Of a stretch of DNA of 64,000 nt, positions 1 through 53,225 are shown piece after piece. How positions within the stretch are numbered: the stretch's first letter is position 1; each line of letters starts with the position of its first letter. Both the position numbers and the translations under genes were made by a program. The DNA is from a virus, in the IMG/VR virus record IMGVR_UViG_3300009285_003054, positions 1 through 64,000 of that record; one strand, written 5' to 3'. The notes beneath the pieces are model-generated. The model did not search any database and was not told the DNA's origin. It saw only the letters and a program-made list of their open reading frames with translations.

Positions 1-206
1 ATTCCTGACTTGATTCCTGACTTGATTCCTGACTTGATCCCCGACTTGATTCCTGACTTGATTCCTGACTTGATCCCAGACTTGATCCCAGACTTGATCC
101 ACGACTTGATCCCCGACTTGATCTCCGACTTGATTCCTGACTTGATCCCCGACTTGATCTCCGACTTGATTCCTGACTTGATTCCCGACTTGATCCCTGA
201 CTTGAA
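1..206 (-). repeat. 12-bp tandem repeat encoding a four-residue protein repeat
   Basis: About 17 copies of a 12-bp unit (minus strand CAAGTCAGGAAT and close variants) run without gaps. The length is an exact multiple of three, and the variation falls mostly at codons 3 and 4 of each unit. This fits a protein repeat kept by selection rather than a DNA-level satellite. The array continues past the left edge. Confidence 0.95.
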
Positions 207-420
207 CCAAGTATACACTGCCTAAACAGCCGGCAAACGGACTGTTTAGGTGGATCCATATCGCTGGTGGCTCAACTCCCGCGCACCGATACGCGCGGGA
301 GATGGCATCTCGACATCGACTGTCGATTGGCTCTGTGGATAGGCCAATGTCCAACCATTTTTGCCTAAAAGTTGGAAGAAGTGCTTCTTGTTCGGGTGTC
401 AAATGTTCAATCTTGGACAT
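1..420 (-). CDS. DUF6745-like repeat protein, partial (runs off left edge)
   Basis: An open minus-strand frame begins with ATG at 420 and is still open at position 1 (140 codons). The start has an AAGGAA ribosome site seven bases upstream and overlaps the end of the next upstream gene (407) by 14 bases, so translation is probably coupled. The N-terminus (MSKIEHLTPEQEALLPTFRQ) and a later STEPID stretch look like the DUF6745 family of phages and bacteria, as I recall it. From about residue 72 the protein becomes tandem four-residue units, Q-V-(R/G/W/V)-(N/D), encoded by the 12-bp repeats. Function is unknown. The opposite-strand frame over the same repeats is a shadow. Confidence 0.8.
   Translation of the reverse strand, partial: MSKIEHLTPEQEALLPTFRQKWLDIGLSTEPIDSRCRDAISRAYRCAGVEPPAIWIHLNSPFAGCLGSVYLVQVRDQVGNQVRNQVGDQVGDQVRNQVGDQVGDQVVDQVWDQVWDQVRNQVRNQVGDQVRNQVRNQVRN
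221..250. repeat. Perfect inverted repeat inside the DUF6745-like gene
   Basis: CCTAAACAG at 221-229 pairs with CTGTTTAGG at 242-250 (9 bp, 12-base loop). A second perfect 9-bp hairpin lies at 276-301 (CTCCCGCGC / GCGCGGGAG, 8-base loop). Neither has a U-tract, and both lie inside coding sequence. They are therefore RNA or DNA folds of unknown role, not clear terminators. Confidence 0.7.
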
Positions 421-700
421 ATTGTATTCCTTCGGGTTTGTATTCTCGCTGCTGGGTGACTGCGTAGTCTCCGGGAGGGAGACTAATAGTTCCATGCTCA
501 GGATGATCGATGTAGGCATCTGCTTGCGCACTGATGAAGACATCGGCACCATCGCGAAAAACATGGGACGAATCACTACTCCTAAGTGCGTGGGCGTGAC
601 CTGTAGCTGTACCACGACGTAGAACTCTATCGTGATGTGGCACTGCCGTATCCGGTATCTTGGTCACCCGCCGGATCAAAATATCTCCTTGTCTGTACAT
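407..700 (-). CDS. Small conserved phage protein (GDxLIRR / GHAHAL type)
   Basis: The protein has 97 residues from the ATG at 700, chosen because AGAAAGGAAA sits just upstream; an in-frame ATG at 724 has no such site. The N-terminal MYRQGDILIRRV, central TGHAHAL and C-terminal DYAVTQQREYKP match a small family common in phages and in bacteria next to DUF6745-type genes, as I recall. The function is not known. It overlaps the following DUF6745-like start by 14 bases, so the two are a translationally coupled pair. Confidence 0.75.
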   Translation of the reverse strand: MYRQGDILIRRVTKIPDTAVPHHDRVLRRGTATGHAHALRSSDSSHVFRDGADVFISAQADAYIDHPEHGTISLPPGDYAVTQQREYKPEGIQYVQD

Positions 701-740
701 GTAATGTTTCCTTTCTATACTCACAGGCTAAGAACTACCG

Positions 741-941
741 CTAACCTTGTTGTACCGGTTCAAACGAACCGTGTGACGCCGCCCGATGCGTAGCTTCCGA
801 TACACCGTCCGGTGAGAAACCACACGCCAATGCCATCATTCGATTCACATCATCCCGAGGATGCCAACTCGAACTTCCATCCGCAAGACCAAGACGTCTT
901 TTCTGCAGAGAGTTCAACTTCACCCACCCACACTCACTCAC
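741..941 (-). pseudogene. C-terminal segment of a gene split by in-frame stops (66 aa)
   Basis: This frame lies directly after the TGA that ends the 942-1481 frame and is in the same phase. It has only a GTG at its very start and no separate ribosome site, because the junction is a run of five GTGA/TGAG tetranucleotides. Residues downstream look like ordinary protein, for example DDVNRMMALACGFSPDGVSEA. The simplest reading is that 741-1631 was one gene that acquired stops or slipped in the tetranucleotide run. Separate translation by re-initiation is possible. Confidence 0.45.
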
Positions 942-1481
942 TCACTCACGGGCGAGTGCGTAGAGCCTCTGCGATGCCAACCGATTTGCTCCAGCCAAGT
1001 TTGTCCCTGGGGGGACCGAGAAACCCGCAGCCAGAGCTTTTACATCCTCTGCCCACCCGAATTGGATGAGGAAAGAGAAGTACCTGGTTGCATGCCACAT
1101 TACTATGCTAGACACATCGTAATCCGTAGTAACTACAGGAAGCATCTGGAATACATCTTTGCGCCACACATCTGCGTCCGGCGGGACATCTTTCTTGAGA
1201 TCAATCCCCACCCCAGTGTCAATCCACGATCTCGTCGTGTCTCGCGCATCAGCAATGATCACGTTGATACTGGCTACTGTGGTGTTGCGCTTGATTACTA
1301 CATCCACGCGGGCGAATCCTGCATGGATGGGTCGCATATCGTCGGACCAGTAGGGATAAACCAGGTATCTGAGTCTGGGATCACCCCCATGCGGACCCGT
1401 ATACAGACCAACCTCCAGCACCCAATCTCTCCCCGTCGCACCCTTGTACTTACCAAACATCAAACTGCTTGGCGGGAACAC
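942..1481 (-). CDS. Hypothetical protein, middle segment of the split frame
   Basis: This is a 179-residue frame with no family I recognise. The first start is a GTG at 1481, and an ATG lies at 1460; neither has a convincing ribosome site. It is in the same phase as the frame before it (1485-1631) and the one after it (741-941), separated only by a TAG and a TGA. The content (mixed beta-rich segments such as RDWVLEVGLYTGP and TVASINVIIADAR) looks like real protein. It could be expressed by coupling to the upstream stop, or be the body of a decayed gene. Confidence 0.5.
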   Translation of the reverse strand: MFPPSSLMFGKYKGATGRDWVLEVGLYTGPHGGDPRLRYLVYPYWSDDMRPIHAGFARVDVVIKRNTTVASINVIIADARDTTRSWIDTGVGIDLKKDVPPDADVWRKDVFQMLPVVTTDYDVSSIVMWHATRYFSFLIQFGWAEDVKALAAGFSVPPGTNLAGANRLASQRLYALARE

Positions 1482-1484
1482 CCA

Positions 1485-1631
1485 CTAGCGTTTTCCAATG
1501 TATCCGGTTATAGTGCTTTGACCGCACACCTTCAGGGGTTCAATTCTACCAAAATGATCAAACACGGTTTGATCATCGAAAATCACAGGGTTCTTAACGA
1601 CATACCTCTCCAAAGACTCAAACCCCTTCAT
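1485..1631 (-). CDS. Short frame opening the left minus-strand operon (48 aa)
   Basis: The ATG at 1631 has an excellent GGAGGAGG ribosome site, and a sigma-70-like promoter lies upstream at 1735-1763, so translation surely starts here. After 48 codons a TAG ends the frame, but the same phase stays open on the other side of that stop for another 179 codons. No family is recognised. It may be a true small protein, or the N-terminus of the split gene covering 741-1631. Confidence 0.6.
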   Translation of the reverse strand: MKGFESLERYVVKNPVIFDDQTVFDHFGRIEPLKVCGQSTITGYIGKR

Positions 1632-1734
1632 TGTAGTAGCCTCCTCCGTTTTTTTGTTTCTGACCACTTGAGCCAACTTTACAGAAATCTCACTTTACTG
1701 AACCGTTAAGTGAATATCTGCAAAGTACAAATAT

Positions 1735-1763
1735 GGTATATCTACTTGCTGCTACAATGTCAA
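1735..1763 (-). promoter_or_regulatory. Sigma-70-like promoter for the left operon
   Basis: On the minus strand TTGACA (1758-1763) is followed after exactly 17 bases by TATACC (1735-1740). It faces the gene starting at 1631, leaving an untranslated leader of roughly 100 bases. It directly follows the end of the gene-free region, where the minus strand has a run of T. Confidence 0.7.
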
Positions 1764-1764
1764 C

Positions 1765-3620
1765 AAAAAAAGAAAACATAGCAAAATCAGTATGCTTCCC
1801 GGTACACACCAACAAGTCACTAATGCAGATAAAGCATGATGGGAGCCATCAATTTAGCAACTCCCCCACCGAACCAAACTTGTGAAAGGAAAAATCGGGA
1901 ACACCAAACGTGGGGTGTATTGGGTACGTTTTCCACCCCTTGTTCCACCCTCGAAGGTCCTGGAGTTAGGATCCCCGGGTGGAGGAAAGCGACCGGGTGT
2001 TTATGCAACATCCGACCAGCGAGCCCTAATTGTAATTATGTTGCCGCCTTGGCCGCTAGCGTGATCATGTTGGGTGACAATGCCCCGTGGTGTTGGTCCT
2101 TCTGATTTGCGCCTAGCGCCGAAATAGCGTGTCGAAGCCTACACCGTGATGTCCACACACTCAACCCTCTTCTCCACCTCTCCACCGCAAGGTGCAACCG
2201 GTGATAACATAGGGATAACAAGGTGTGCATCTGGATATTATAAGACCCGGGAAGAATGCCACTGGCAACCCTGCTTAACTCGCTTTCGAGTTCTGGGAAG
2301 TCCTCTCGCTGACCCTGGGCCAGGCCGCAAGCCCCAGGTTGGACCGTAATCGGAACACCAATCTATGCGGGTGGCGATGCTGTTTTCTCCGTAATAGGGA
2401 AACGCTTTTAATTACGTCCCTCTAATTACGAAACGGGAGTTTTTAAGGTACCTTCGAGCCTATCTCCTGTTAGGACGGGATGGCCAGTCCGACCGGTCTC
2501 GCAATAAACAAAAACGTCTGACCCCCCTTCTCGTGAGGATCCGTGAGGTGTCATTCAATAGTAACCCGGTAGGTGCTCTGATGACAAAGAGCTTCTGGTA
2601 ATCCGGGATAAAAACTGGAAAGGTTCTCGATTCTGTATTCTGCGGGTAGCTACCCCGGAGAGGAGCGGAGACGGACATATGGTAATCCGGACCTGGTTGT
2701 CACTGGGCACCCGACAAAGTCTAGCTAGTCTCCCTTAGAAAAGATACCGGCTACGGTCTCGTCTCGGCTGGAACTAATAGTCAAAACCGCCAGCCTTGTC
2801 ACGTAAGCCTATGCGTGATGAACGTGGTATATGTTCACGGGTGGTAAGAGTAGGAGTAGGGCACTACGAGGTGCTAACTTGATGTTGTATAACAGCATCT
2901 GCAACCTCGGAAGTAGCAGGGACGCCATAGGAGGGATCCCCGCCCGGTTATCGTAGCAGGATACAGCACAACCGCCGTCGAGAACGAAGAATGGCTTAGC
3001 GAGAGCACATGGGGCAGGTACATAGTCCCTCGGGGATCCGTGAGTACCCCAGAAATTCTACTACAGGGAAAACGGAGAAAGAGCGTGACAAACCCGGCTT
3101 AGACACCGCCTGACTTGACAGCAGGCATATGAGATTCCGGTGCCTTTGATAAGGCGAATACGAGGTAGACTTGCTACCAGAATAACTCGAACTAGTTGAT
3201 GGGGTTCGTAACCTAATAGCAAGAGAACCTTCGGGAATCTTCCGGGGAGCATAACTTTCCTTGGCAGGACCCCTAATGGCTACAGCGTTTAGGAGTAGAC
3301 ACACGTAGCCATACCGATACAGCACTCTCTGCAACCAGCAAAGACGGGCAACCTTCACATTCTAGTAAGCAACCCACCCATACCCTTCTCTGATAATCCC
3401 CTTACTCTCTGGGATCCGAGGAGAAGCAAAAGAAGAGTGGACATCCTACTAAGAAGGATAACGTAAAACCGTTACAGAGTGCTTTCTAGGGATCCAGAAA
3501 GGAAAGGGATGGTAAGGGCGGGTTTTGTCTTCCCGGGGATAATAGAGAATCTAATAGGGGATTGACTACTTGTTTAGTATCTTCTGGATCTCTGGTAGGT
3601 ATCGACACCATTTAGTCTAC
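1765..3620. ncRNA. Candidate giant structured RNA in a 1.85-kb gene-free region
   Basis: No frame here has a ribosome site plus believable protein content. Perfect or near-perfect hairpins are packed together, especially 2277-3501. Examples are 2277-2292, 2314-2338, 2575-2592, 2766-2795, 2799-2818, 2881-2899, nested 3017-3048 (GGTAC outside TCCC/GGGA), 3108-3126, 3142-3155, 3164-3178, 3188-3208, 3272-3293, 3443-3459, 3459-3474 and 3482-3501. Large phages are known to carry very large ornate RNAs (GOLLD, ROOL) in such gaps. I cannot assign this one to a class, and the transcribed strand is not certain. A T-run on the minus strand near 1765-1775 could be the 3' end if it is read leftward with its neighbours. 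Confidence 0.55.
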
Positions 3621-4181
3621 TCAAAGGCTGGGGGTCAACCAGCCTTTGCATTTCAACGTGTTCACCGCAATTCCAATCTGGCGGGGGGTGAATTGTTTCT
3701 TGTGCTTCCACATGCACACACGGGTGACTATCTCATCCAGGCTGTCACATGGTTCGTGCTGTGTGATCCAATGTACAGTCACTAGAAGCTCTAGCCCAAA
3801 GGCCGACTCAAAACCTGATATCAGATCTGCCACACGTTCTACCCGGGCCATCGTTTCTGGATGCTGCTGCAGGATGGCTGTGGCATCCTCTATGGCACCG
3901 GGTATTAGATTGATGTGCCCGTCAGGTGCATGCCCTGCATAGCCAGAGACCATGTGGTATTCGATCATATGCATGGCATGCCACAAATTCTTCGTGTTGG
4001 GACCAAGCAATACCTTGTTGAACTTCAGGCGGAGCGGCTCACCAGCTATTTGAAGAAAGTATAGCAACTTGTATACTTCGAGCATGGTCACGAATGGGTC
4101 GAGTAGACCTCTCAGGTATGTGTCCATCAATTTCACCAAGGCAGCTCGTCCAGGCGTCATGGTGGGAACGGACGGTGCCAT
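3621..4181 (-). CDS. Stand-alone DarG C-terminal-domain homologue (candidate anti-DarT)
   Basis: The protein has 186 residues; the start is fixed by AGGAG eight bases before the ATG at 4181. It aligns along its length with the C-terminal half of the DarG antitoxin: MTPGRAALVKLMDTYL, then LEVYKLLYFLQIAGEPLRLK, then an LGPNTKNLWHAM stretch and a GYAG turn, then NLIPGAIEDA, then FGLELLVTVHWI. DarG normally has an N-terminal macrodomain that removes ADP-ribose from DNA; this gene has none. The DarG C-terminal domain is reported to block the DarT toxin directly, by mimicking its DNA substrate. DarTG systems defend bacteria against phages, so an inhibitor of host DarT is the likely role (inference). 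It lies beside the candidate structured RNA. Confidence 0.85.
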   Translation of the reverse strand: MAPSVPTMTPGRAALVKLMDTYLRGLLDPFVTMLEVYKLLYFLQIAGEPLRLKFNKVLLGPNTKNLWHAMHMIEYHMVSGYAGHAPDGHINLIPGAIEDATAILQQHPETMARVERVADLISGFESAFGLELLVTVHWITQHEPCDSLDEIVTRVCMWKHKKQFTPRQIGIAVNTLKCKGWLTPSL

Positions 4182-4280
4182 GTAAGAGGCTCCTGTATGG
4201 GTTTTCCTGCTATTGTACTTCTACTACTATACTTCTATCTTTAGAGGATTGGCTTCGGGGGATAGGGATTGAGAAGGATC

Positions 4281-4320
4281 CTGAAATGGATTGGGTGAGC
4301 CTGAAATGTATTTGGTGAGA
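4281..4320. repeat. Two adjacent 20-bp direct repeats in an intergenic region
   Basis: Units at 4281-4300 and 4301-4320 match at 17 of 20 bases. They lie in the 183-bp gap between the DarG-like gene and the acidic protein gene, upstream of the DarG-like start on the minus strand. This is where an operator or regulator site could be. No clear -35/-10 pair was found in the gap. Confidence 0.6.
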
Positions 4321-4364
4321 ATGTACCTGGCAAGATGGGAGTGGGTTAGGGGGCGACTGTCTGT

Positions 4365-5555
4365 CTACTTGTGGAATTTGAAGACCAAGTTGGCGACCGC
4401 GTCCCGGAGTGCGTCGCCTGCCTCTTTCCAACCTTCACTGTCCACGTACCAGCAGTTGTCGTCTTCACTGTCAAACAAGAAACCTGTGTTCTTCATGACC
4501 TTGCTGGTGAGCAGGGGGTTGAGCTCGGTAAGCTTCTTGCCACCATCAAGGCAGTAGAACACATCGGTGTCTACCTTCTTTTTGGTGTACCCCAGTACCA
4601 CCGGGGCATCCTCATCATCCCCGGAACCAGCACACTCATCCTCATCAGCATCCTCACACTCATCATCCCCGGAACCAGCACACTCATCCTCTTCCGCGTC
4701 ATCGTCATCCTCTTCGGTGGTGGGATCTTCCACCTTGGGTTGCTGCTTGCCAGCGCCCTTGGGCTTGCTGTCAGCCTTGGCTTCCGGAACGTCTACCATC
4801 TTGAGCTGCCCCCAACCAGCCGTCGCTAGCTGATTGTTGAGCTTTAACCAGGCGGTATCCCCGGTGGCTCCTTCGACCAACAGGCTGGTGGTATAGGCCA
4901 GCATCTCAGAAACTTTCCGGAATCCCCACTTGAGATCAGTGTTGATGTCTTTGAACGTCGCCGCCCCATCCTTGGCCCCGGCGTCAACCGCATCCTGCAT
5001 GAGCTTCTTCACTGCCTTGATGGCACTCTTCTGTGCCTTGCTCAGCTCAGCCACTGCCGGGGGGGCCGTCTCCTTCTTGGCCTTGGGCTCCGTCGGGTCC
5101 GGGGTGGTCTCTGCCTGGCCAGCCATGAGATTGACCAGCACTACCTCACACAGCAGTGCCGCGAGGTAGTAGTGCTTGTCCCGGAGCATACCGATGGTCT
5201 TGGACAACCCATCGGCGGTTGGGTTGATCAACCCTTTAAGCAGCAGGTACCCATCCTTCGGGGATCCCACACCCAGCCCCATGGTGGTGCACGCAGTCAT
5301 GATACCCTTCTTGTCCTTGTCCTTGCACAGCGCCTGGATGTGCTCCAGGGTGTAAGCGTCGGCGGGCACTTCGGGGAGCCCATTGGTGTCGGCGTCTTCC
5401 TCCAGCCCATCTTCAATGAGCTTGGCATCCTTAATGACAAAGCATATTTGTCCCACATCTGTTCCCTTCGGGATGACAATCCCTAGCCTCTTGGCCTCCT
5501 GCAGCATTTCCTTTATTTCAGTTGCTGTGGGCTTCTTGGCAGCTGTCTTACTCAT
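4365..5555 (-). CDS. Nested shorter product of the same frame (396 aa)
   Basis: Inside the 534-residue frame an ATG at 5555 has its own AAGGAG ribosome site eight bases upstream and its own promoter at 5638-5666 (TTGACA, 17 bases, TACAAT). The new N-terminus (MSKTAAKKPTATEIKEML) looks like a natural protein start. Both a long and a short form are therefore expected. The short form begins with a helical region, holds the domain shared with 45736-46020, and ends in the acidic duplicated segment plus a final folded part rich in Trp and Phe. Its abundance and acidity would suit a DNA-mimic or accessory role, but that is a guess. Confidence 0.65.
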   Translation of the reverse strand: MSKTAAKKPTATEIKEMLQEAKRLGIVIPKGTDVGQICFVIKDAKLIEDGLEEDADTNGLPEVPADAYTLEHIQALCKDKDKKGIMTACTTMGLGVGSPKDGYLLLKGLINPTADGLSKTIGMLRDKHYYLAALLCEVVLVNLMAGQAETTPDPTEPKAKKETAPPAVAELSKAQKSAIKAVKKLMQDAVDAGAKDGAATFKDINTDLKWGFRKVSEMLAYTTSLLVEGATGDTAWLKLNNQLATAGWGQLKMVDVPEAKADSKPKGAGKQQPKVEDPTTEEDDDDAEEDECAGSGDDECEDADEDECAGSGDDEDAPVVLGYTKKKVDTDVFYCLDGGKKLTELNPLLTSKVMKNTGFLFDSEDDNCWYVDSEGWKEAGDALRDAVANLVFKFHK

Positions 5556-5969
5556 GGTCCATTCTCCTTGCTGTTGTTGTGCTTGGCGTTCTGTTGTTGC
5601 ACCCTCGCCCTGGGCTTTACGCTCACCTGCACCTACCATTGTACCCGATTTGTTTCCGTTTGTCAAGCGATTTTTTTCAGCCGCAATGATTTTCTCGGCT
5701 TCCATCACGTCATCTGCTGGGAAGATACATGCATAAGCACACGTCCACTTTGATCCTACCTGACTACTTCTACCAGTACCTCTTTCCTCTACAGTTTCCA
5801 CTTTAACCGACTTACCATTGAATTTCAAGACCTTGGCCAATGTCCTTTCTCCATTGGGCATTCCGAAGAGAACTCGGTCATCTACCCGCACGTGCTGGGT
5901 TACACAGTGAAATGCATGTTCTGCTGCTTCATGTTGTACGGTTGCTTTGCAGAATGGACATTTGTACAT
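4365..5969 (-). CDS. Zinc-finger N-terminus fused in frame to acidic low-complexity protein
   Basis: One open frame of 534 residues starts at the ATG at 5969 (AAAGGAGC six bases upstream) and is driven by the promoter at 6035-6063. Residues 1-27 hold CPFC...H...C...H, a likely zinc finger, followed by a small beta domain (DRVLFGMPNGER...). The rest is the nested protein starting at 5555, described separately. Near the C-terminus there is a highly acidic stretch with a duplicated DECAGSGDDE-type unit. A 90-residue segment in the middle (from AELSKAQKSAIKAVKK) is a paralogue of the protein at 45736-46020. The function is unknown. The N-terminal part reads like a separate small protein that has no stop of its own. 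Confidence 0.75.
   Translation of the reverse strand: MYKCPFCKATVQHEAAEHAFHCVTQHVRVDDRVLFGMPNGERTLAKVLKFNGKSVKVETVEERGTGRSSQVGSKWTCAYACIFPADDVMEAEKIIAAEKNRLTNGNKSGTMVGAGERKAQGEGATTERQAQQQQGEWTMSKTAAKKPTATEIKEMLQEAKRLGIVIPKGTDVGQICFVIKDAKLIEDGLEEDADTNGLPEVPADAYTLEHIQALCKDKDKKGIMTACTTMGLGVGSPKDGYLLLKGLINPTADGLSKTIGMLRDKHYYLAALLCEVVLVNLMAGQAETTPDPTEPKAKKETAPPAVAELSKAQKSAIKAVKKLMQDAVDAGAKDGAATFKDINTDLKWGFRKVSEMLAYTTSLLVEGATGDTAWLKLNNQLATAGWGQLKMVDVPEAKADSKPKGAGKQQPKVEDPTTEEDDDDAEEDECAGSGDDECEDADEDECAGSGDDEDAPVVLGYTKKKVDTDVFYCLDGGKKLTELNPLLTSKVMKNTGFLFDSEDDNCWYVDSEGWKEAGDALRDAVANLVFKFHK
4605..4690 (-). repeat. Direct repeat encoding duplicated acidic segment
   Basis: A block of about 35 bp around the ggaaccagcacactcatcct motif occurs twice (about 4620 and 4671). 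On the minus strand it encodes two copies of an acidic DECAGSGDDE-type unit. It is a recent in-frame tandem duplication within the acidic gene. Confidence 0.75.
5638..5666 (-). promoter_or_regulatory. Internal sigma-70-like promoter for the nested gene
   Basis: TTGACA at 5661-5666 and TACAAT at 5638-5643 on the minus strand are 17 bases apart. The promoter lies wholly within coding sequence and faces the nested start at 5555. Its -35 context (TCGCTTGACA) matches that of the promoter at 46063-46091, which drives the paralogue of this protein. Confidence 0.7.
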
Positions 5970-6034
5970 TGCATGCTCCTTTGTTACATGGATGTTACAT
6001 GGAATCGTTTTCGGGGTTGCATTATGTGGGATAG

Positions 6035-6063
6035 AGTATAGCAGTAATTCGGGCGGATGTCAA
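6035..6063 (-). promoter_or_regulatory. Sigma-70-like promoter with extended -10
   Basis: TTGACA (6058-6063), 17-base spacer ending in TGC, TATACT (6035-6040) on the minus strand. It faces the gene starting at 5969. The TG one base before the -10 is the extended -10 motif. Confidence 0.8.
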
Positions 6064-6071
6064 GGGAATTC

Positions 6072-6293
6072 TTATTCTGGATCCAAGGCAGTGTGTTCTG
6101 GGCACAAGAGGGTGGCTTGCTTCTGACGCCATACCCAACCTTTCTTTTCTGCTCGTCGCGTGAGAGCATGATCAAATGGGTGAGTAGGTGATGGGGATCT
6201 ACCAGGCGAACACACCAATGTTCGCCTGGAGCACACCACGGGGATAGCGGCTTTGTATGACTGTGGTTCTACGCTCTTCGACACATATCTCAC
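6072..6293 (-). CDS. Small Cys-containing hypothetical protein
   Basis: This is a 73-residue frame starting at a GTG at 6293, seven bases after the previous gene's stop codon begins. AAGGA lies nine bases upstream, within the end of that gene. The C-terminal half (RRAEKKGWVWRQKQATLLCPEH) has the KGW...CPEH pattern seen in many small phage proteins with metal-binding Cys and His. Its function is unknown. It appears to be the last gene of the operon that begins near 16.5 kb. Confidence 0.55.
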   Translation of the reverse strand: MRYVSKSVEPQSYKAAIPVVCSRRTLVCSPGRSPSPTHPFDHALTRRAEKKGWVWRQKQATLLCPEHTALDPE

Positions 6294-6299
6294 TGTGGT

Positions 6300-7205
6300 T
6301 CATCCTTGGTACTTCCAACCAGCAAATATAATCTTTCGACTTGGTGGGATGAATCTAACAAGTGCATTCAATACACCCAAGTCTGCACCCATTCGAGCAG
6401 CAGCAATGGCTGTGCTTTTGATTTTCTTCTCGGATAGCAGCTGATATGCAGCTGCTACCATTCGGCCTTCTTCATCCGATTCAATCCACATCTGCACATT
6501 GGCCCAGAGCTGCTTGAACTCCTCAGGATTTTTTCCATCCTCTAAGCGGGTGATGTTTACCCGCTTAGCTCCGGATATACTCCTCCTAGAGGTAATACCC
6601 GCGAGAAACCGCCATATCGCTAGCTGACACGCTTCTTGGTGCTTTTCCTGGATGCATCCAAAGAGTGTTTTCAGAGCGGCCATCGGGTCAAAGTCTTTGC
6701 TAAATTGTGGAATGATAGCAGTTGTTGTACGTAACACGGCGTCTATTTTAGTTGGGTGAATTGGTCGATACCCCGCGGCCTTGATGGACTCCTGAATCCC
6801 AGCTATGGTAGGCTGGGGGGTTATCAACCCCCAGGATCCGTCCACTGCTTGCTTGGCGTCTACTATTCGGATGTTCGCTCGGAGAGCATCGAGGATCTCG
6901 GGGTCGTCGTGGACTGACACCTTGATTTCTTCTTTGGTGAGGGGTCCCAGCTTCTTGAGGTTACGTGCCCCGCACACAATGAATACAATTGATTCTTCCC
7001 CATGTCTGTTGTGAATGGCTTCTCGGATATCCTCGCGAGGTACCTCGTCAGTCACCATGATGGTGCGTGTTCCGATAATGTTGGTAGAGAACAGGAACAC
7101 AACTGCGGGACTCTGATAACCAAACCCTGCCATTTTGGGAAAATACTGCGATTTTCCCAATTTGGTCGAAGGGTTCTTTGTCTTCTCTTTGGATTTTTTC
7201 ATCAT
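6300..7205 (-). CDS. Hypothetical protein, possibly clamp-loader delta-like
   Basis: The protein has 301 residues and no family I can name with confidence. The first 120 residues alternate strands and helices (QSPAVVFLFSTN, then SIVFIVCGARNLKKLGPLT). The C-terminal 150 residues are helical (MAALKTLFGCIQEKHQEACQLAIWRF). This shape, and a position just downstream of the SbcCD and DnaX-like genes, resembles a HolA-type delta subunit of a DNA polymerase clamp loader, but no diagnostic motif is visible. Treat the function as unknown. Confidence 0.7.
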   Translation of the reverse strand: MMKKSKEKTKNPSTKLGKSQYFPKMAGFGYQSPAVVFLFSTNIIGTRTIMVTDEVPREDIREAIHNRHGEESIVFIVCGARNLKKLGPLTKEEIKVSVHDDPEILDALRANIRIVDAKQAVDGSWGLITPQPTIAGIQESIKAAGYRPIHPTKIDAVLRTTTAIIPQFSKDFDPMAALKTLFGCIQEKHQEACQLAIWRFLAGITSRRSISGAKRVNITRLEDGKNPEEFKQLWANVQMWIESDEEGRMVAAAYQLLSEKKIKSTAIAAARMGADLGVLNALVRFIPPSRKIIFAGWKYQG

Positions 7206-7251
7206 TTGTTGCTCCTATTTGTTAAGCATGGTAATTCTTTATGGTTTTTGA

Positions 7252-9336
7252 TTAGCGCCTTCTGCATTTCATATGCGAAATTCCTGCCGAATCTCTGTAG
7301 ACATGGATATGCTGAGAGAATGCACCGTGTCCACGGATTCCTTCCGAGTGTGAGATAGCAAATATAGACGGGAATTCAATACGTAATTCCGACAAAATGT
7401 CTATCAATGTGTCCCTACCACTATCGTCCAAACCCCCATCGAACTCGTCGAGGAAGAACACGTTCAGTTGGGTTGCTCTCAATTCTCGTTCCGCTAAAAG
7501 TAGGGCTAACGACAAGCGTTTTTTCTCACCTTCAGACAGAGATCCGATTTCAAAACACACACATTTAGGATCTTTCCTATCCGATGCCTCAAATATTATT
7601 TCAGCCTCTCCCGGTGCTAGAGTAAAATTGTACTTAGGTAGCAGATTCTGGATATAGGGTGTTAGCCGAGTCTGAATCTCTGCAAGGATTTGTTGCATCC
7701 TCTCCAAGCGTAGACCCCTATTCCCGAAGGCGTCTACGCAATCGGATAGCATGGTCAGTTTCTTTCGATTCTCCACACCCTTAGCTACTTCCTTTCGTGT
7801 CGTGCGAATCTGCGCACAGAGTTTTTGTATGCGGGAGATCTTTTGTTGTACCGCCAATAGGCGTCTGCTTTCCCTATCCCATTTGGATCGAATGTCATTT
7901 CTTTCCCTAGTTACCCGATCTACCATCCGCTGAGTCTTATCCGGATGGCCTTTAGGTAGATCGGAGATCTCTACCACCAACGCCTCTCTACGGAGGATTC
8001 CCTCTAGGTGTGTTTCTATGTCGGAGATCTCTTTGTCCGTCTGTGCAAGGGTAGTCTGAATCTTCGCGAGATTCCCCACCGGTAGTTGGTCTAGCTCTTT
8101 TTGTAGTCTTTGCTCCTCTTTGAGTTGAAGAATATACTCTTCGAATAGTTTTTGCTCGCGTTGAAGCGGAGTTAACTCCGCTTTCATCTTGTTTCGACCC
8201 TGCTGGAGTGATCCGAGTCGGCTAGGGTTTATGTCACCCCGCAATTTCTGTCGACATGTAGGACACCGATCGAGACCATTGAGAGATTCGATGATCTCTA
8301 TCTGGGCGTCAAGTTTGCTCAACTGTACACGTAAGGCTTTCAACGCGGATTTTCTCTTTTCTACGTTTTCGGGGATTGCGTAACCCGGAATACCTATCAT
8401 AGTGCTTTGCAGTAGCATCTTTTCCAAAACATTTCTGCGACGTAAGTCAGGGATTTTCCCACGCAGGGTATCTCTTTCTCTTCGGAGTTTACGGATCCGT
8501 TCTCGGGTGACATGACCATCTCCATCTTGGAGTCGACTTATCTCTCTTTCTAATTTCTTGCGTCTACGTTGCTTGTCCCGCCTACGCACGGCGGATATAA
8601 GTTTTACCTCTGTTTGAGCGTATTTCTCTTTGAGGTTCTCTACCCTTTGCTGAAGTGCAGAGACTGCACTTCGTATATGATTCAATGAGTCCTCTTGCGC
8701 CAGCTCGGACTCCAATAGCTTGAGGCGGGATGATGTATCTTCTATACCAGTCAATCTCGCTTGGATTCTTTCCCTAAGAGCTTTTATTTTGATCTGGATC
8801 TCATCATAGATGCCTAGTCCATAAGCATCGCTGATATACTTCGCACGGGAGCCCGGTGTACCTGACACCAGGGGGTGGGTCGCACGGTGAGGGAGACATA
8901 CGCTTGAGCAGAATTCCTCAAAGTTTATTCCGATTAGATTGGAAACATATGTCTGAGCTTCAACAGACCGAGTAGGAGATACGGGTTGGGGTTCATCACC
9001 ACGATATACTACTACCCCGTTCTTCTTGCCCTTGATCCCATAGGACTTGCAGACCCTGTATTTGGTATACTCCCCAGCTGTCTCCTCCCGGCGGAAGATG
9101 ATTTCCAGCGTCATCCCTTGCTTGTTGCGGAGTGCAACTCGATTTACTATGCGTTGTGCTCGACCACTCTTAGTGGTCTTCCCATAGAGGATATCGAGAA
9201 TTAGCTCGGTGATATTGGTTTTTCCCGAGCCATTGTGCCCAGTGACCAGGCACAACCCCTGATCTGCTAAGGGGAGGCGAAGACTACCCCAGGTGAGGCC
9301 GTTGTGGACACGTAACTCATCAAGCAGGATGTTCAT
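7252..9336 (-). CDS. SbcC/Rad50-like recombination ATPase (phage gp46 type)
   Basis: This is the ATPase subunit of the SbcCD/Mre11-Rad50 nuclease that processes DNA ends and hairpins in recombination-dependent replication. From the ATG at 9336 it has 694 residues. It shows Walker A GHNGSGKT (33-40), long coiled coils, a zinc-hook CPTC near residue 360, the ABC signature LSEGEKKRL near 605 and Walker B NVFFLDEFD near 635. It is shorter than bacterial SbcC (about 1,050) and close to phage gp46 forms. The start overlaps the DnaX-like stop as ATGA, with GAGGAT upstream, so I prefer it to the ATG at 9360. Its nuclease partner is at 10588-11664, with the clamp loader gene between them. Confidence 0.93.
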   Translation of the reverse strand: MNILLDELRVHNGLTWGSLRLPLADQGLCLVTGHNGSGKTNITELILDILYGKTTKSGRAQRIVNRVALRNKQGMTLEIIFRREETAGEYTKYRVCKSYGIKGKKNGVVVYRGDEPQPVSPTRSVEAQTYVSNLIGINFEEFCSSVCLPHRATHPLVSGTPGSRAKYISDAYGLGIYDEIQIKIKALRERIQARLTGIEDTSSRLKLLESELAQEDSLNHIRSAVSALQQRVENLKEKYAQTEVKLISAVRRRDKQRRRKKLEREISRLQDGDGHVTRERIRKLRRERDTLRGKIPDLRRRNVLEKMLLQSTMIGIPGYAIPENVEKRKSALKALRVQLSKLDAQIEIIESLNGLDRCPTCRQKLRGDINPSRLGSLQQGRNKMKAELTPLQREQKLFEEYILQLKEEQRLQKELDQLPVGNLAKIQTTLAQTDKEISDIETHLEGILRREALVVEISDLPKGHPDKTQRMVDRVTRERNDIRSKWDRESRRLLAVQQKISRIQKLCAQIRTTRKEVAKGVENRKKLTMLSDCVDAFGNRGLRLERMQQILAEIQTRLTPYIQNLLPKYNFTLAPGEAEIIFEASDRKDPKCVCFEIGSLSEGEKKRLSLALLLAERELRATQLNVFFLDEFDGGLDDSGRDTLIDILSELRIEFPSIFAISHSEGIRGHGAFSQHIHVYRDSAGISHMKCRRR

Positions 9337-10556
9337 TCTGCTTGATCCTCTGGCACACATGTGTCCCAGAGTCCGGTGACCACCAGAGTGGTCACCAAAG
9401 ATCCCGGTACAATGAAATTTTTGGCCCTCTCATACTGGCGAGCTAGATACTCACCCCCTCTAATGAGATCAGAGAGGGAGATGCCTTCCATACCCGCATC
9501 GACTCCAGCATCCGCATAAATCCGAAACATGCTGCTCGAGAAGTAGGGATCCACCAGACTTCTCGAAATGATCGCCTTGATTGTCTGATCCCACACTCGG
9601 ATCATTCCACCGAGCAACAAGTGGGCCTCCATACCCGACTTGTTTGCGGTTCGTAATGCTTCTGTTGGGTTTCCTGCCAAGATCTCTCCGATCACGTGCA
9701 TAGCCACTTGGTCGGGGTTTCCTGACTGTACGGAGTCGATGATGGTGGGCAGCATCCTCTTGATATCAACGCCACCCTTCCTTCTCTGCGCGTTTAGGAC
9801 CTGTTCGAGTACAGATATGCTGTCTCGGGGCGTATAATTGCACGCCACAACGATCCGCTTGAGCCACTTGTTGTCTAGTGTGGCATGTTCCTCTTTGACG
9901 ATCTTGGCTAGGCGTTTGCCCAGCTCTGCAAGGGTTGGTGGTCGGATCTTCAGGTGCCCAGCTCGGCATCTTCCTATCAGAGTACTTTTGAGTTTTCCTG
10001 GATCGGTCGTGGAAAGAATCCAGATGGTACTTCCCGCGGGGTCTTCCAACGGTTTGAGCATAGCCTCCTGTGCCTGTGGTGTAAGCCCCTGGGGCTCGTC
10101 CAACAGGATCACTCTACGCTGCCCCGTCATGGTGTGCAGTCTCGATTGCTGTACCAAGCTGCGGACATCATCAATGCCTCGCTCAGACGAGGCATTGATC
10201 TCGATATGTGCAGGGTGGGTAGGTGCGGGATAAGTAGCATACTTTTTGCACGAGTCACACTTCCCACAAGGATCTGCACCGGTCGTTACCCCGATGCAGT
10301 TTATGCGCATACTTATTAGCCGAGCGAAAGATGTCTTTCCTGTCCCTGTCCGCCCTTCGATTAACCATGCCCTCGGGATGCGCTTGGCACTGAACGCATC
10401 CCGTACCACCTCGATTGCAGATGTCTGTCCAGCGAAACTCCGCATATCTCGTGGTCGATACTTGTGAGTTAGGGGAATGCCTTCCTCGGAAGTTTCCTGT
10501 TCCTGTCGAGCCCGCTCCATTATTTTATTTCGTACTGTTACGCTCGGTTTGGCCAC
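9333..10556 (-). CDS. DnaX-like clamp loader gamma/tau subunit
   Basis: This AAA+ ATPase would load a sliding clamp on primed DNA. It has 407 residues, starting at a GTG at 10556 with AAAGGAGG six bases upstream. Visible motifs are LTHKYRPRDMRSFAGQ at the N-terminus (the usual YRP..F.D.VGQ start), Walker A GRTGTGKT (68-75), zinc cysteines in CGKCDSCKK, Walker B VILLDEPQ (usually DEVH), sensor 1 STTDP and an arginine region TLIGRCRAGHL. The C-terminal helical domain is short, as in gamma rather than tau. Phages more often use gp44/gp62-type loaders, so a bacterial-type DnaX is notable. Confidence 0.9.
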   Translation of the reverse strand: MAKPSVTVRNKIMERARQEQETSEEGIPLTHKYRPRDMRSFAGQTSAIEVVRDAFSAKRIPRAWLIEGRTGTGKTSFARLISMRINCIGVTTGADPCGKCDSCKKYATYPAPTHPAHIEINASSERGIDDVRSLVQQSRLHTMTGQRRVILLDEPQGLTPQAQEAMLKPLEDPAGSTIWILSTTDPGKLKSTLIGRCRAGHLKIRPPTLAELGKRLAKIVKEEHATLDNKWLKRIVVACNYTPRDSISVLEQVLNAQRRKGGVDIKRMLPTIIDSVQSGNPDQVAMHVIGEILAGNPTEALRTANKSGMEAHLLLGGMIRVWDQTIKAIISRSLVDPYFSSSMFRIYADAGVDAGMEGISLSDLIRGGEYLARQYERAKNFIVPGSLVTTLVVTGLWDTCVPEDQAE

Positions 10557-10587
10557 GAATACCTCCTTTGGTATATTTACCCAAACT

Positions 10588-11664: not shown

Positions 11665-11666
11665 GG

Positions 11667-14800: not shown

Positions 14801-15150
14801 GTTTTGGCTCCATCAAGAGGGCTGGCCACCCTTCGAATTACATCTTCAGTTATAGGATCAAATGACAGGAGTATGTTGTCACAACGGCAACCGTTGTGAT
14901 ATCTCAGTATACGGGGAATTCTCGCTACGGGAATATGGTGGGAATCCTCGGGGGTTATCATTACAATGGTGGGATGTTCTAGTAATGGTGCATTTTCCGA
15001 GAAAACTTGAATATGCCCAGACATCCTTCGATCATCTGGGGATATTATGAGCACTACACAGCAGGGGTACTTTCGGATATACTTCCGAAACCCCCTTGCT
15101 GTGATCCTCCTAGCCACATACATATCGACTGGTGTGGAAGACGAAGACAT
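14752..15150 (-). CDS. Hypothetical protein (132 aa)
   Basis: This frame overlaps the topoisomerase-like start by 49 bases in another phase. It encodes alternating strands and helices (CCVVLIISPDDRRM, HPTIVMITPEDSHH), which suggests a small alpha/beta fold. No family is recognised. The overlap and shared direction place it in the same operon as the topoisomerase homologue and RecA-like gene. Confidence 0.65.
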   Translation of the reverse strand: MSSSSTPVDMYVARRITARGFRKYIRKYPCCVVLIISPDDRRMSGHIQVFSENAPLLEHPTIVMITPEDSHHIPVARIPRILRYHNGCRCDNILLSFDPITEDVIRRVASPLDGAKTCPSRQSTVVMAKKFL

Positions 15151-47355: not shown

Positions 47356-49914
47356 ATGAACTCACCGTGTGTCCTACCTACCGATGTTGATCCAAAGCGT
47401 ATACTCCATGTAGTATACAATTCCTTGAGTATCAACGAGTTACAGCAGCTCTACGATCGATGTGGGAGATCTACCAAAGCCATGCGTATTTGCTTGGGAA
47501 TTCGGGGGGTAGTCTCAAGCAAAAAGCTCAGTAGGGACCTCTATGACAAAGGGGTCCTGCTCCATCCCGATGATATGCTTGACCAGAGGCTAGGGGTGGC
47601 GGGTAAGACTCGATTGGAACTGAGCAAATACGCTGTATTCGATTTGGGGGATGGCTTTGACCCTGAGTCGATGATGGAAGATGCCATCGATTCTGATCTT
47701 GATCCATCCGTGTTCTCTGACATGGACATCCGAGAACTAGACAACCCCCCTAATTTCTTCGAGTACGTCACCGGAAGGAAATACCTCAACACCACGATCT
47801 TCCCGAGACAGTTCCAGATTCAGCTTGGATTTTTTGAAGAATTTTGTCCGTGGTGTAGTGACAAAGAATTTGTCAAAGACATCCATCTATCACCCTATCC
47901 TTCAGAGGATGGTATACATCGGAGACCATGGACTAACGATGAAATCCTTAGCAAAGTAACCCTCTACCAACACGGCAAGTGTCCAAAGTGTAAGCGTACA
48001 TACATTGACGCTTTCAATGACCCTAGACAACCTCATCGTTTCCCCAAGGAAGTGGACGCTTGCATTGGGCAGCGGGGTGGAAAAACCCGCATGACCGAAC
48101 ACATGATGTCGTACAACGAGACACGCTTCCACCTGCTTTCCCCCTCGCCACAGCAATTCTTCGGAGAAGACGCCACCCAGAAGTTCTCAGCTATCTATAC
48201 CGCCCTGGAGATGACACAAGCGCAAGACACTCTTTGGGGGGCATACCATCTTCGGGTATTGGCTGCTCCGTGGTGGCACAACTACCACAAATGGTTGGAT
48301 CATCATGGCAAACGACTAGGAGTAGAACTCTATCGTATCAAAGAGACATACCATTTCTATGCGAACACATTGCTCCATAGTGTCCTACGTCCCCCATTTG
48401 CGAAGAAGATGCGAGGCCGAACATCCTTTGATGGTGGCATAGATGAGATTGGTATGTTCGCAAAAAGGGAGGGGAGCATCGTTGCAAATGCCGACGAAGT
48501 CCACAAATCTATCGGCAACAGCTTGATGACACTCCGGGGGAAAGCGGATCAGCTTCTCCGGAGAGGGGTATTGGGTGTTCCCGCACCCGCACTCTTCTGC
48601 ATTTCATCTCCGTGGGAACTCCTTGATAAGATTATGACACTGGTACGGACAGTTGACAAAGATCCTACCCGAGTAGCATACCACTATCCCACTTGGGATT
48701 TCAACCCAAATCTTCATCGAGATGATCCACAGATGGAAGCCGAGTTTCTCAACGATCCGGTGGCAGCAGAGAGAGACTTCGGAGCTATCCCCCCTTTTGC
48801 GAAAGATCCGTTCCACCCAGTTCCCGATGCAATTGATTACCTGGAGGTTCCCGCACTCCACCAAGTGTTCATCCAGCAGATTAAGTATTGCACCACAAAG
48901 AGCGGAAAGCGTTTGGTTTATGCCGTGCCTCTGCGTATGCAATCCGATCATGTTACACCCAGATTGCTATGCTTGGACGCTGGTGAGTCCGATAACTCAT
49001 TTGCATTGACTCTCTGGAGATTGGTGGATTTACCTGCTCCACCGGCAGACACCATGGCTGAGTCAGACGACGATGACGACGATGACGAGGATATCCGGGT
49101 GGTAATGGCGGCGATAGCAGCAGAGAAACACACGAAAGTACCTGGTGATGAGCATCGTGGCAGAGTTACTTACATGCAGCTCGACGGGGCTATTGAGGTA
49201 CAACCCTTTGTAAACGAAAGTGGATACCAGTATAGGGTGTCTTTCTCAAAGATGTGGAAGTACTGTATTGAACCCATCATTCGGGCATTCAATCTGGTGG
49301 GGGTTATTGGGGACCGGTGGAACATCACACAGATTATGAACTCAATTGAAGAGTTAGGGGTATACACCGAACAATACAGCTTGGTGTGGTCGGATTTCCT
49401 TGCATTCAAAGAGAAGACCAGTGCCCGCGAACTCCGACTCCCATCCCCCGAACGACCATTTACGGATGTCTACACAGACTACGACAAAGCTGTCCGTGGA
49501 GCACCGATTCTACATTTAGTCGTACAGTACAAGACTGTACGCCAAGTAGGGCGTACAGTTACCAAACCACCCAGCGGTACGGATGATCTTTACCGTACTA
49601 TGGTATTAGCACATCGGTTTGCCTTCAGTGAGAAGGCAGTCAAAGAGATTGACGGGAGGGAAATAAGCTTTTTCGAGCTGCTCCATCGTGAAGGAAAGAT
49701 GGAGCGAGTAAACCGCGCAGTTTCAGTTATCATGTTGCATGGTGGGAGTGGTAGCTCATCCCCAATGGCACAGGTGGGTGGTGGATTTACCCGGCTAGGT
49801 GGGTACGTTTCGAGGGGTGGTGCAGCTGGGGGGGTTACCGGTGGGAACTCATACTCTAACGTTGCCACCCACGGTGGGAAGGGTGGGGACAGTCCTAGTA
49901 CGCGGAGACAATGA
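47356..49914 (+). CDS. terL: Terminase large subunit with zinc-finger insertion
   Basis: This is the packaging motor and headful or site-specific nuclease. Of 852 residues, a Walker A-like IGQRGGKTRM lies near residue 238 and a Walker B-like SFDGGIDEIGMF near 360. The nuclease domain begins with RLLCLDAGESDNSF near 535. Two Cys pairs (FCPWC, KCPKC) before the ATPase core make a zinc insertion unusual for terminases. An acidic stretch of Asp near 575 sits inside the nuclease domain, and the C-terminus is Gly/Ser-rich. Gene order (terminase, portal, protease, scaffold, capsid) supports the call. Confidence 0.85.
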   Translation: MNSPCVLPTDVDPKRILHVVYNSLSINELQQLYDRCGRSTKAMRICLGIRGVVSSKKLSRDLYDKGVLLHPDDMLDQRLGVAGKTRLELSKYAVFDLGDGFDPESMMEDAIDSDLDPSVFSDMDIRELDNPPNFFEYVTGRKYLNTTIFPRQFQIQLGFFEEFCPWCSDKEFVKDIHLSPYPSEDGIHRRPWTNDEILSKVTLYQHGKCPKCKRTYIDAFNDPRQPHRFPKEVDACIGQRGGKTRMTEHMMSYNETRFHLLSPSPQQFFGEDATQKFSAIYTALEMTQAQDTLWGAYHLRVLAAPWWHNYHKWLDHHGKRLGVELYRIKETYHFYANTLLHSVLRPPFAKKMRGRTSFDGGIDEIGMFAKREGSIVANADEVHKSIGNSLMTLRGKADQLLRRGVLGVPAPALFCISSPWELLDKIMTLVRTVDKDPTRVAYHYPTWDFNPNLHRDDPQMEAEFLNDPVAAERDFGAIPPFAKDPFHPVPDAIDYLEVPALHQVFIQQIKYCTTKSGKRLVYAVPLRMQSDHVTPRLLCLDAGESDNSFALTLWRLVDLPAPPADTMAESDDDDDDDEDIRVVMAAIAAEKHTKVPGDEHRGRVTYMQLDGAIEVQPFVNESGYQYRVSFSKMWKYCIEPIIRAFNLVGVIGDRWNITQIMNSIEELGVYTEQYSLVWSDFLAFKEKTSARELRLPSPERPFTDVYTDYDKAVRGAPILHLVVQYKTVRQVGRTVTKPPSGTDDLYRTMVLAHRFAFSEKAVKEIDGREISFFELLHREGKMERVNRAVSVIMLHGGSGSSSPMAQVGGGFTRLGGYVSRGGAAGGVTGGNSYSNVATHGGKGGDSPSTRRQ

Positions 49915-50672: not shown

Positions 50673-53225
50673 ATGTTCAAGACATACGACCAGGACAAAT
50701 CCGGGCAACCCCTAGCTGGTCAGCCAGTGTCTGGTCTAGTGCGTACTGGAATTGTACATCATCGTGACTCCACACCTGCGTCCAGACCACCCACATCCCG
50801 TACACCATCTATCCGAACTGCTTCTACATCATCCTCCAGTAGCAGTGGGGGTGGTGGGTACGGGGTAGAGCGCTATAACCCCGCATTTGATCGTCTGGAT
50901 GAGGGGAGTGTAGTAGAAGACTGGATTCCCCGCGATCAACCAGGGATTAACAAGATGCTCCGGATGATCTACCTACGGGATGAGGTAGGTGGTCCGATGG
51001 TAGACATCTACAAAGAGATGGCATGGTCGGACTACGATCTGTTGGGGATGGAAGACAAAGAAATGCTCAGACCGTATGAGGATACGGCACGGTCGATGGA
51101 CTTCCTCTCAGTCCTCCCAGAGGTATCTTCCGAGGATCTGGTAATCGGACGGAGCATCAGCTCACTCCTTTGGGATGATACCAAAGGGATCTTTGTGGGA
51201 ATGGTGCCCCACGACCCTGATTTTTGTCGAATAACACCCATGCCTATCTTTGGGCATGACCCAATGGTTGACTTACGGGCGTCCCCAGGGTGGAAAGCGT
51301 TTGCTGACTCTGATGATGAGCGAGTAGTAGACGTAAGATCCACGCTGCCTCCCCGGATTATGGAGACCCTCTCTAATTCCGGATTCATCCCGTTGGATCC
51401 GATTAACACTGCCTTCATTCGGCGCCGTTGTGGTAGTTACGATCATGTAGGGACCTCAATTTACTCCCGCCTAGTGAACTTCATAGCCATCCAGAAAGCG
51501 TTGTTAGACACTACAGTAGTAAGTCTCAGACGGCGTGCAGCCGGAGTACTCCACATCATTGCCGGAGATGAGAGATGGGAGCCAACGCAAGAAGAACTCT
51601 CTGCTCTAGCAGGGATGTGGATGCAGGCCGAAGAGGACCAGGGTGGTGGGATTGTCGCTACCCGAAGTGGGGTTCAAGCAGATCGGGGGGCATCGGCTCA
51701 AGGGGATGCCTGGAAACTTTCGGACGAGTGGGCTTTTCTCTCCGAGGGGAAGATGCGGGCATTAGGAGTGTCAGACGCATTCTTAAGCGGAGAGAGCACG
51801 TTCTGCGTGGTTGGAAGTACACTGATTCTGACGAAGGATGGGCTGAAACGGATTGATTCCTTGGCTGATCGATCAAACGGGGATCACCAACACCTAAGAG
51901 TTCAAGTACAATCTCGGGATGGGCTTGGCTGGACGAGCCAATGGCACTACAACGGAGAAAAGCCTACTCTGATCTTGCATTTGGATAATGGCGCATCAAT
52001 CGAATGCACCTACAATCACAAAATCCTAACAGCATCTCTGGAGTATGTTGAAGCGGGCGAACTGCTTCCAGGGGACAGCGTACGAACATTTGATGGTGGG
52101 TATGGTTACGCCGTTATTACCCAGGTCATGGACAACGGGATCAAACCGGTTTACGATCTGACCATGGAAAAAGGATTTGAACCTGCGTTTGTGGCCAACG
52201 GGTTGGTCATCCATAACTCGAATATGGAAATGGCTTTGTCAGTTTTTCTGGAACGACTCCGTGGATTCCGTGAACACCTCACCAACCAGTTCATCTACCG
52301 TAGAATCTTTCACACCATCGCGAGGGCACATGGGTTCGTCCGTCCGGAAAAGAATACGCCCCACGGTAGAAGACAAGCTGCACTAATGCCCACCCGAGAG
52401 GCCATGAAAATCGATCCTACTCGGTTGATCGTTCCGGAGTTGCGGTGGCATAAGAGTTTGCACCCGGTGGGGGATGAGTCATACCTTACCATCCTTGATC
52501 GTATGAAAGAGGCTGGCTTACCGGTTACCCTGGAGCATTACGCATCAGCGGGAGGATTCAACCTTCGCCGGGCGATGACCATGCTGGACACTGATGTTAA
52601 GATGCGTGAGAAGCTCAAAGATTGGGTATCCGCCACCGGTGGGGGTGGGATGGGGATGGGTGGCTCCGAAGGAGGATCTGAGGGGGAAGATAGTGACGAA
52701 GGGGGAGGTGGCCCATCCATCTTCGGGAAAGTCCGATACCCATTGTCAGGGATCACCAAACGAAGTGAATTACGCACGGCTGCTCCCAGAGTGGTAGGAG
52801 AAATCCCCATCTGGGATCGCACCAACAAGTTCTGTGGTCTGTCGAAGCGGGAAGCGCAACAGGCGATGGAGAAGGTTATCCCCTGTATCCTCCGGGATGG
52901 GGGGAGACCCCCTACCAAGCAATTACTACTCGCATCTGGTTTGACGGGGCGGAAGGCGTCAGCTTTCCATTACTTACTTACCCGGACAGGACTCACACCT
53001 GAGTATGCAATGCCAGAAAAAGTGCAGATTAGTATTACAGAACACTTGGCCACCCGGACTAATAGGAAGACTGCACTTCAGGAGGTTCAAGCGTTGGCTA
53101 GATGTGCAAAAGCACAATCAACCTCCTCCCGGAAGAGCGACTCATTGGGCAGTCGAATCAGAGGACCTGAATTAACCCAACGTGAGTTTCTCACTGGACA
53201 CATTGAGAAAGAGATTCCGAAATGA
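50673..53225 (+). CDS. Portal protein interrupted by a mini-intein
   Basis: The 850-residue translation contains a 138-residue intein (separate entry), leaving a 712-residue portal. The first 70 residues are Ser/Thr/Pro-rich and flexible. The body has the portal-like YDLLGMEDKEM start and, after the intein, an SNMEMALSVFLERLRGFREHL segment. The joined sequence LSGESTF-SNMEMAL matches the conserved portal clip/stem motif. A Gly/Glu-rich linker is near residue 655. It sits between terminase and protease, as expected. The ribosome site at 50673 is weak. Confidence 0.85.
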   Translation: MFKTYDQDKSGQPLAGQPVSGLVRTGIVHHRDSTPASRPPTSRTPSIRTASTSSSSSSGGGGYGVERYNPAFDRLDEGSVVEDWIPRDQPGINKMLRMIYLRDEVGGPMVDIYKEMAWSDYDLLGMEDKEMLRPYEDTARSMDFLSVLPEVSSEDLVIGRSISSLLWDDTKGIFVGMVPHDPDFCRITPMPIFGHDPMVDLRASPGWKAFADSDDERVVDVRSTLPPRIMETLSNSGFIPLDPINTAFIRRRCGSYDHVGTSIYSRLVNFIAIQKALLDTTVVSLRRRAAGVLHIIAGDERWEPTQEELSALAGMWMQAEEDQGGGIVATRSGVQADRGASAQGDAWKLSDEWAFLSEGKMRALGVSDAFLSGESTFCVVGSTLILTKDGLKRIDSLADRSNGDHQHLRVQVQSRDGLGWTSQWHYNGEKPTLILHLDNGASIECTYNHKILTASLEYVEAGELLPGDSVRTFDGGYGYAVITQVMDNGIKPVYDLTMEKGFEPAFVANGLVIHNSNMEMALSVFLERLRGFREHLTNQFIYRRIFHTIARAHGFVRPEKNTPHGRRQAALMPTREAMKIDPTRLIVPELRWHKSLHPVGDESYLTILDRMKEAGLPVTLEHYASAGGFNLRRAMTMLDTDVKMREKLKDWVSATGGGGMGMGGSEGGSEGEDSDEGGGGPSIFGKVRYPLSGITKRSELRTAAPRVVGEIPIWDRTNKFCGLSKREAQQAMEKVIPCILRDGGRPPTKQLLLASGLTGRKASAFHYLLTRTGLTPEYAMPEKVQISITEHLATRTNRKTALQEVQALARCAKAQSTSSRKSDSLGSRIRGPELTQREFLTGHIEKEIPK
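51804..52217 (+). other. Mini-intein (no homing endonuclease) in the portal gene
   Basis: Splicing block A begins with Cys1 (CVVGSTLILTKDG), block B is SIECTYNHKILT, and blocks F/G are KPVYDLTMEKGFEPAFVANG then LVIHN, followed by Ser+1. All catalytic residues are present (Cys1, block B Thr and His, penultimate His, terminal Asn, Ser+1). At 138 residues there is no room for an endonuclease, so it can splice but not home. It sits in the highly conserved portal motif, typical of inteins. Confidence 0.92.

Follow-up and report, generated by a model that had tools for sequence, protein, structure and literature searches.

The question raised by this locus is whether a phage gene corresponding only to the DarT-binding half of the antitoxin DarG could act as a direct inhibitor of DarT. 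The window, that is, the whole stretch of 64,000 nucleotides that was analysed, belongs to a virus record of 176,803 bases, and the gene lies at positions 3621-4181, where the earlier note had placed it; the strand, unstated there, is minus. The gene and its upstream region comprise the following features:

3621..4181, minus strand: gene of the stand-alone DarG C-terminal (DarT-binding) domain, protein P0001, assigned from the open reading frame and its translation, profile matches and fold.
4190..4194, minus strand: ribosome-binding site AGGAG, 8 nt 5' of the P0001 ATG, read from the minus-strand sequence.
4182..4364, minus strand: gap upstream of the P0001 gene, the expected place of the macrodomain, free of remnants by sequence and tblastn.
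4365..5969, minus strand: upstream neighbour, a 534-aa protein with no recognised family in Pfam or PHROG.

The open reading frame is intact, with an ATG start and 186 codons, and its GC content (0.52), GC3 (0.60) and codon use fall inside the spread seen across the remaining genes of the phage, so that it does not have the look of a chimeric insert. At the extreme left end of the record, an in-frame tandem repeat of DLIP units was observed at window positions 10-225.

According to both sequence and predicted fold, P0001 is a homologue of the DarG C-terminal domain. It was matched by the PADLOC DarG profile (135.5 bits, E 6.9e-40, profile positions 157-327 of 329) and by the NCBIfam profile antitoxin_DarG (NF048014; E 2.6e-39, positions 162-338 of 338), in the latter case with a score, again 135.5 bits, that falls below the full-length cut-off of 250. 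These matches span residues 4 to about 178 of the 186 and lie in the C-terminal half of the profile only, in agreement with the earlier note, which had described a match to the DarT-binding half of DarG along the length of the gene. The sole significant sequence match in the PDB was 7yk3_B, the DarG fragment of the M. tuberculosis DarT-DarG complex (1e-10 with the single sequence, 3e-40 with the family profile), and profile searches of Pfam and PHROGs returned no family. Identity to bacterial DarG C-terminal domains is 55-60% for many of them, with a maximum of 60%, and the domains in this range adjoin darT in bacteria; L048, L049 and L051, Synechocystis pSYSG and Paracoccus pBEN are among the closest bacterial relatives. 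Furthermore, the domain start 'VPxMTPGRAAL' is kept directly behind the N-terminus, as if the protein had been cut at the interdomain linker. The AlphaFold2 model, built from a 61-row alignment, reached a pLDDT of 92 and a pTM of 0.89 with all helices and strands predicted at high confidence, and a Foldseek search of the PDB with this model gave 7yk3_B (TM 0.82, E 6.2e-9) and 7yk3_D (TM 0.81) and nothing significant beyond these DarG chains; the same model had no significant match in BFVD. A Panacea/SocA-like antitoxin domain was also considered and rejected, as the Pfam match was absent and the model resembled a phage Panacea protein only weakly and without significance (E 0.6).

P0001 nevertheless falls short of a complete DarG: the macrodomain and the darT partner were both looked for and are both absent. 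In the whole 176,803-base record, which may be incomplete, we found no macrodomain (PF01661), no DarT, either with PF14487 or with a DarT protein query, and no NADAR domain (PF08719), and tblastn of six DarG macrodomains and of DarT sequences against the window returned nothing at 1e-3. The lack of a macrodomain, also pointed out in the earlier note, thus holds both for the gene and for the record. The gene that precedes that of P0001 (4365-5969) encodes neither DarT nor a macrodomain but an unrelated protein of 534 aa, and the 183-base gap between the two differs from the close spacing of darT and darG in the operons of nearly all relatives. The next gene considered (6300-7205) also has no recognised family. 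Two artefacts were rejected: truncation of a darTG module by the contig end, as the sequence from 4182 onward, the upstream side on which darT and the macrodomain would sit, is occupied by intact phage genes, and a frameshifted macrodomain remnant upstream of the gene, of which tblastn gave no sign at 1e-3.

Several features identify the carrier of the gene:

7252..9360, minus strand: Rad50/SbcC-like ATPase (Pfam SMC_N, AAA_23), in the same minus-strand gene series as P0001.
47356..49914, plus strand: terminase large subunit (phrog_17415, E 2.5e-100).
50673..53225, plus strand: portal protein (phrog_16240, E 1.1e-98).

Primase and sigma factor genes are also present in the record and, together with the terminase and portal genes, indicate a tailed phage. 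The terminase is 28% identical to those of large myovirus-type phages such as vB_PpuM-Voja-6. Searches for close relatives through the terminase, neighbour and clamp-loader genes gave no useful ones, and a portal scan returned one 52-kb contig (L159; 69% portal identity). Both the DarG domain and the neighbour 4365-5969 are absent from this contig, which probably does not span the P0001 part of the genome; no relative of this phage covering the P0001 locus was found by these scans. QueD-, QueE- and QueC-like genes were observed at window positions 20891-21475, 22633-23697 and 27195-28226, respectively, and from these the phage may make 7-deazaguanine-modified DNA.

Among viruses, the homologues that we found are organised differently. 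A single-sequence scan of IMG/VR with P0001 gave no relative. With profiles, two scans recovered 38 loci; each of them has a macrodomain and 37 have darT, the remaining one beginning at a contig edge. In 50,697 annotated phage records the only relative was that of Thermus phage phiMa, a full darTG, and in a published survey of viral structures DarG was matched on its macrodomain only (PMC12487901). As IMG/VR, the annotated phages, BFVD and this survey gave no other case, the stand-alone DarG C-terminal domain in a phage is unique among the records searched, from which records very near the window were possibly left out. Pairing with darT or a macrodomain gene in relatives, which the earlier note regarded as evidence against an anti-DarT role, is therefore general among the viral homologues but is not seen in this phage.

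In addition, P0001 differs from its relatives above all in one segment of the domain:

3918..4007, minus strand: codons 59-88, the DarG signature segment, usually YGPYAENLRHVLNAIEGHLVSGYADGGDAPDK and here LGPNTKNLWHAMHMIEYHMVSGYAGHAPDG (alignments A1 and A2).

The DarG signature GPYAENLRH...EGH...GY.DG is not kept, and P0001 has GPNTKNLWH...EYH...GYA--GH instead. In 119 close homologues, 72 positions show conservation of 90% or more; P0001 breaks 11 of them, of which eight lie within residues 59-88. With correction for scanning, i.e. counting any window of 30 residues, 22 of 5000 shuffles clustered at least as strongly. The changes include Y62N, at a position occupied by Y or F in 137/137 homologues, G75Y (G in 134/137) and deletion of the near-universal 'DG' pair (D in 116/119), together with A63T and D84H and, at less conserved positions, E64K and R67W. 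Many other invariants are kept (R12, A13, Y22, E35, K38, L39, Q44, G60, P61, H68, E74, G123, E125, G129, W138 and W158). The alignment with DarG proteins, which the earlier note had proposed as a check, upholds membership of the family but not conservation of its signature. Acidic residues have been lost and the net charge of P0001 is 0 (17 D+E, 17 K+R), compared with a mean of -2.1. In a tree of 138 domains, P0001 falls inside the main DarG group, at an approximate place away from the bacterial stand-alone copies, and its end branch is long, at 1.22 where the median is 0.29. An analysis of covariation across 111 DarT/DarG pairs, meant to locate the contact surface, was discarded because the top scores were close to those of shuffled pairings.

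The domain also stands alone in bacteria. In Latescibacterota it is found in type I restriction-modification loci, directly after or close behind hsdS, where neither darT nor a macrodomain lies in the vicinity, and two gammaproteobacterial loci have a related arrangement (HsdM and the small genes of these loci were named by eye, with no family search):

L053 (Latescibacterota), 2679-4606: domain at 3968-4606, directly after hsdS.
L115 (Latescibacterota), 2651-4663: domain directly after hsdS.
L149 (Latescibacterota), 7344-14883: domain at 8735-9331, directly after hsdS.
L150 (Latescibacterota, 6.5-Mb contig), 7207-8878: domain at 8306-8878, directly after hsdS.
L148 (Latescibacterota), 9224-9841: type I restriction-modification locus of like kind.
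L074 (Gammaproteobacteria), 1767-7787: NADAR-HsdS fusion, then the domain gene with a 4-base overlap, then HsdR.
L151 (Gammaproteobacteria, more distant domain), 286-8724, minus strand: HsdM, HsdS, IrrE-like gene, small gene, domain, HsdR.

L151 is apparently an independent case of the stand-alone domain. Pfam DarT was not detected in the assemblies of L053, L074 and L115, which are incomplete MAGs. Unlike the phage protein, the bacterial stand-alone copies keep the DarG signature in the alignment. Complete darTG has been described within a type I restriction-modification operon of EPEC (PMC12255303), and we also found it within such operons in Meiothermus and on Synechocystis plasmids; the copies that stand alone in bacteria may accordingly have arisen by reduction of darTG modules. 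Orphan DarG was also observed in bacteria, at four loci (L083, L092, L102 and L124) with a full-length or split darG and no recognisable intact darT, two of which (L102 and L124) have a stop codon between the macrodomain and the C-terminal domain. P0001, the stand-alone domains of Latescibacterota, L074 and L151 take separate places in the tree, single-gene placements that are not all well supported, and this pattern suggests, from sequence relationships, a repeated separation of the domain from DarTG. A broader and doubtful view would treat the DarG C-terminal domain as a mobile inhibitory module. It would have left DarTG several times, for phage anti-defence and for bacterial type I operons, in the latter to act on something other than its own DarT, and the phage protein would have been retargeted through residues 59-88.

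Taking these data together, we hold with moderate confidence that the best explanation of P0001 is a direct anti-DarT inhibitor, as judged from its sequence, its model and the analogy with DarG, since the isolated C-terminal domain of EPEC DarG neutralises DarT (PMC7003065). This fragment (aa 127-330) counteracted DarT in vivo without hydrolase activity, and the C-terminal domain is the main DarT-binding part, accounting for most of the two-hybrid interaction (PMC7003065); it has been described as a mimic of negatively charged ssDNA in the DarT active site, and ICP1 AdfB shows that phages are under selection to block DarT by direct binding (PMC11481870). According to the proposed mechanism, the domain would have been captured from a bacterial DarTG2, with nothing of darG retained except what lies downstream of the interdomain linker. 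P0001 would be made in infection and act as a stoichiometric inhibitor: it would bind DarT that the host, or a rival prophage, has made or set free, and mask the DNA-binding site of the toxin, so that the thymidines of replicating phage DNA might escape ADP-ribosylation; as the macrodomain is missing, the protein should be unable to remove ADP-ribose. We infer here that the diverged protein still binds a DarT, that the host has DarT and that infected cells express the gene. The anti-DarT role put forward in the earlier note accordingly keeps part of its basis, namely the DarT-binding half standing alone with neither macrodomain nor DarT, and the fold, and loses another part to the rewritten signature segment and to the stand-alone copies found also in bacteria. 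The zero net charge and the lost acidic residues are not expected under ssDNA mimicry and count against DarT inhibition, as do the changes at near-fixed signature positions and the long branch; given this mimicry, the acidic-residue loss could mean a different DarT, a new target or a lost function.

Because P0001 has lost nearly invariant DarG positions, both retargeting and decay have to be weighed. It is unlikely, but worth considering, that P0001 no longer acts on DarT2 and has instead become an inhibitor or modulator of some other enzyme, such as another toxin or a type I restriction-modification complex. The copies placed after hsdS and in type I operons (L053, L115, L148-L150, L074 and L151) would fit such a change of target, as would the three assemblies with stand-alone copies and no Pfam DarT, together with the lost signature residues of P0001, and since bacterial type I operons carry the domain without DarT, the stand-alone state alone is no proof of phage counter-defence. 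However, complete darTG also occupies type I operons and the bacterial copies are possibly its remnants, and these copies, moreover, retain the signature. Known DNA-mimic anti-restriction proteins are acidic, which P0001 is not. That P0001 is instead a decaying remnant of a darTG module of a phage ancestor, with no present function, seems to us quite improbable; such an origin would agree with the lost near-invariant residues, the long branch and the full darG genes of all the other viral homologues found, but it has to account for a 186-codon open frame with a good ribosome-binding site, secondary structure predicted throughout at high confidence, the survival of most core invariants and an upstream region in which tblastn detected no vestige of darT or macrodomain. 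Scarless loss of two genes with one clean domain kept is also less parsimonious than selected capture. Finally, an unusual phage toxin-antitoxin pair, whose toxin would be encoded by another neighbour gene or be a DarT that has diverged beyond recognition, appears highly improbable: the neighbours 4365-5969 and 6300-7205 offer candidates in that they have no recognised family, but neither the Pfam profile nor the protein query found DarT in the whole record, and the gap and the unrelated gene upstream do not resemble a darT-darG operon.

If P0001 does inhibit DarT, the phage would disarm a defence with no more of the host antitoxin than its binding half, and the protein would offer a direct test of whether DarT binding alone suffices for phage protection. 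Its rewritten signature would then reveal DarG residues that are dispensable or that set DarT specificity. If DarT is not the target, the DarG domain would have a second one, as the type I restriction operon copies also hint.

Compared with known systems, P0001 is closest to DarG2 of DarTG2 (NF048014; PADLOC PDLC02990; 7yk3 B/D), with which it shares the C-terminal domain over its whole length, in sequence (55-60%) and in fold; it differs in having neither the N-terminal macrodomain, the DNA ADP-ribosyl glycohydrolase, nor an adjoining darT, in being carried by a phage and in its rewritten segment 59-88. Complete phage and prophage modules, in phiMa (MH673674, phiMa_38/39) and 37 IMG/VR contigs, have a homologous C-terminal domain but also include darT and the macrodomain, whereas P0001 is the domain alone, and viral macrodomain proteins are the converse case, as they have the macrodomain half of DarG and not the DarT-binding region (PMC12487901). 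The phage anti-DarT factors AdfA and AdfB are phage-encoded without a DarT of their own, a feature that P0001 shares. AdfB (Gp145 of phage ICP1) is, like P0001, a small phage protein without a macrodomain and is presumed to bind DarT directly, but this 'antitoxin mimic' of 77 aa is less than 15% similar to DarG and is taken as independently evolved, whereas P0001 is a true DarG homologue (PMC11481870). AdfA of RB69/T4-like phages is likewise thought to act directly, as P0001 would in the best reading, and differs from it in that its similarity to DarG is described as low (LeRoux et al. 2022, as cited in PMC11481870). On the best reading, and by analogy, P0001 would thus act like the second mechanism of DarG and like AdfB; phage antitoxin mimics directed at DarT are already known from AdfB, and what would be new is a phage anti-toxin factor built from the host antitoxin's own binding domain.
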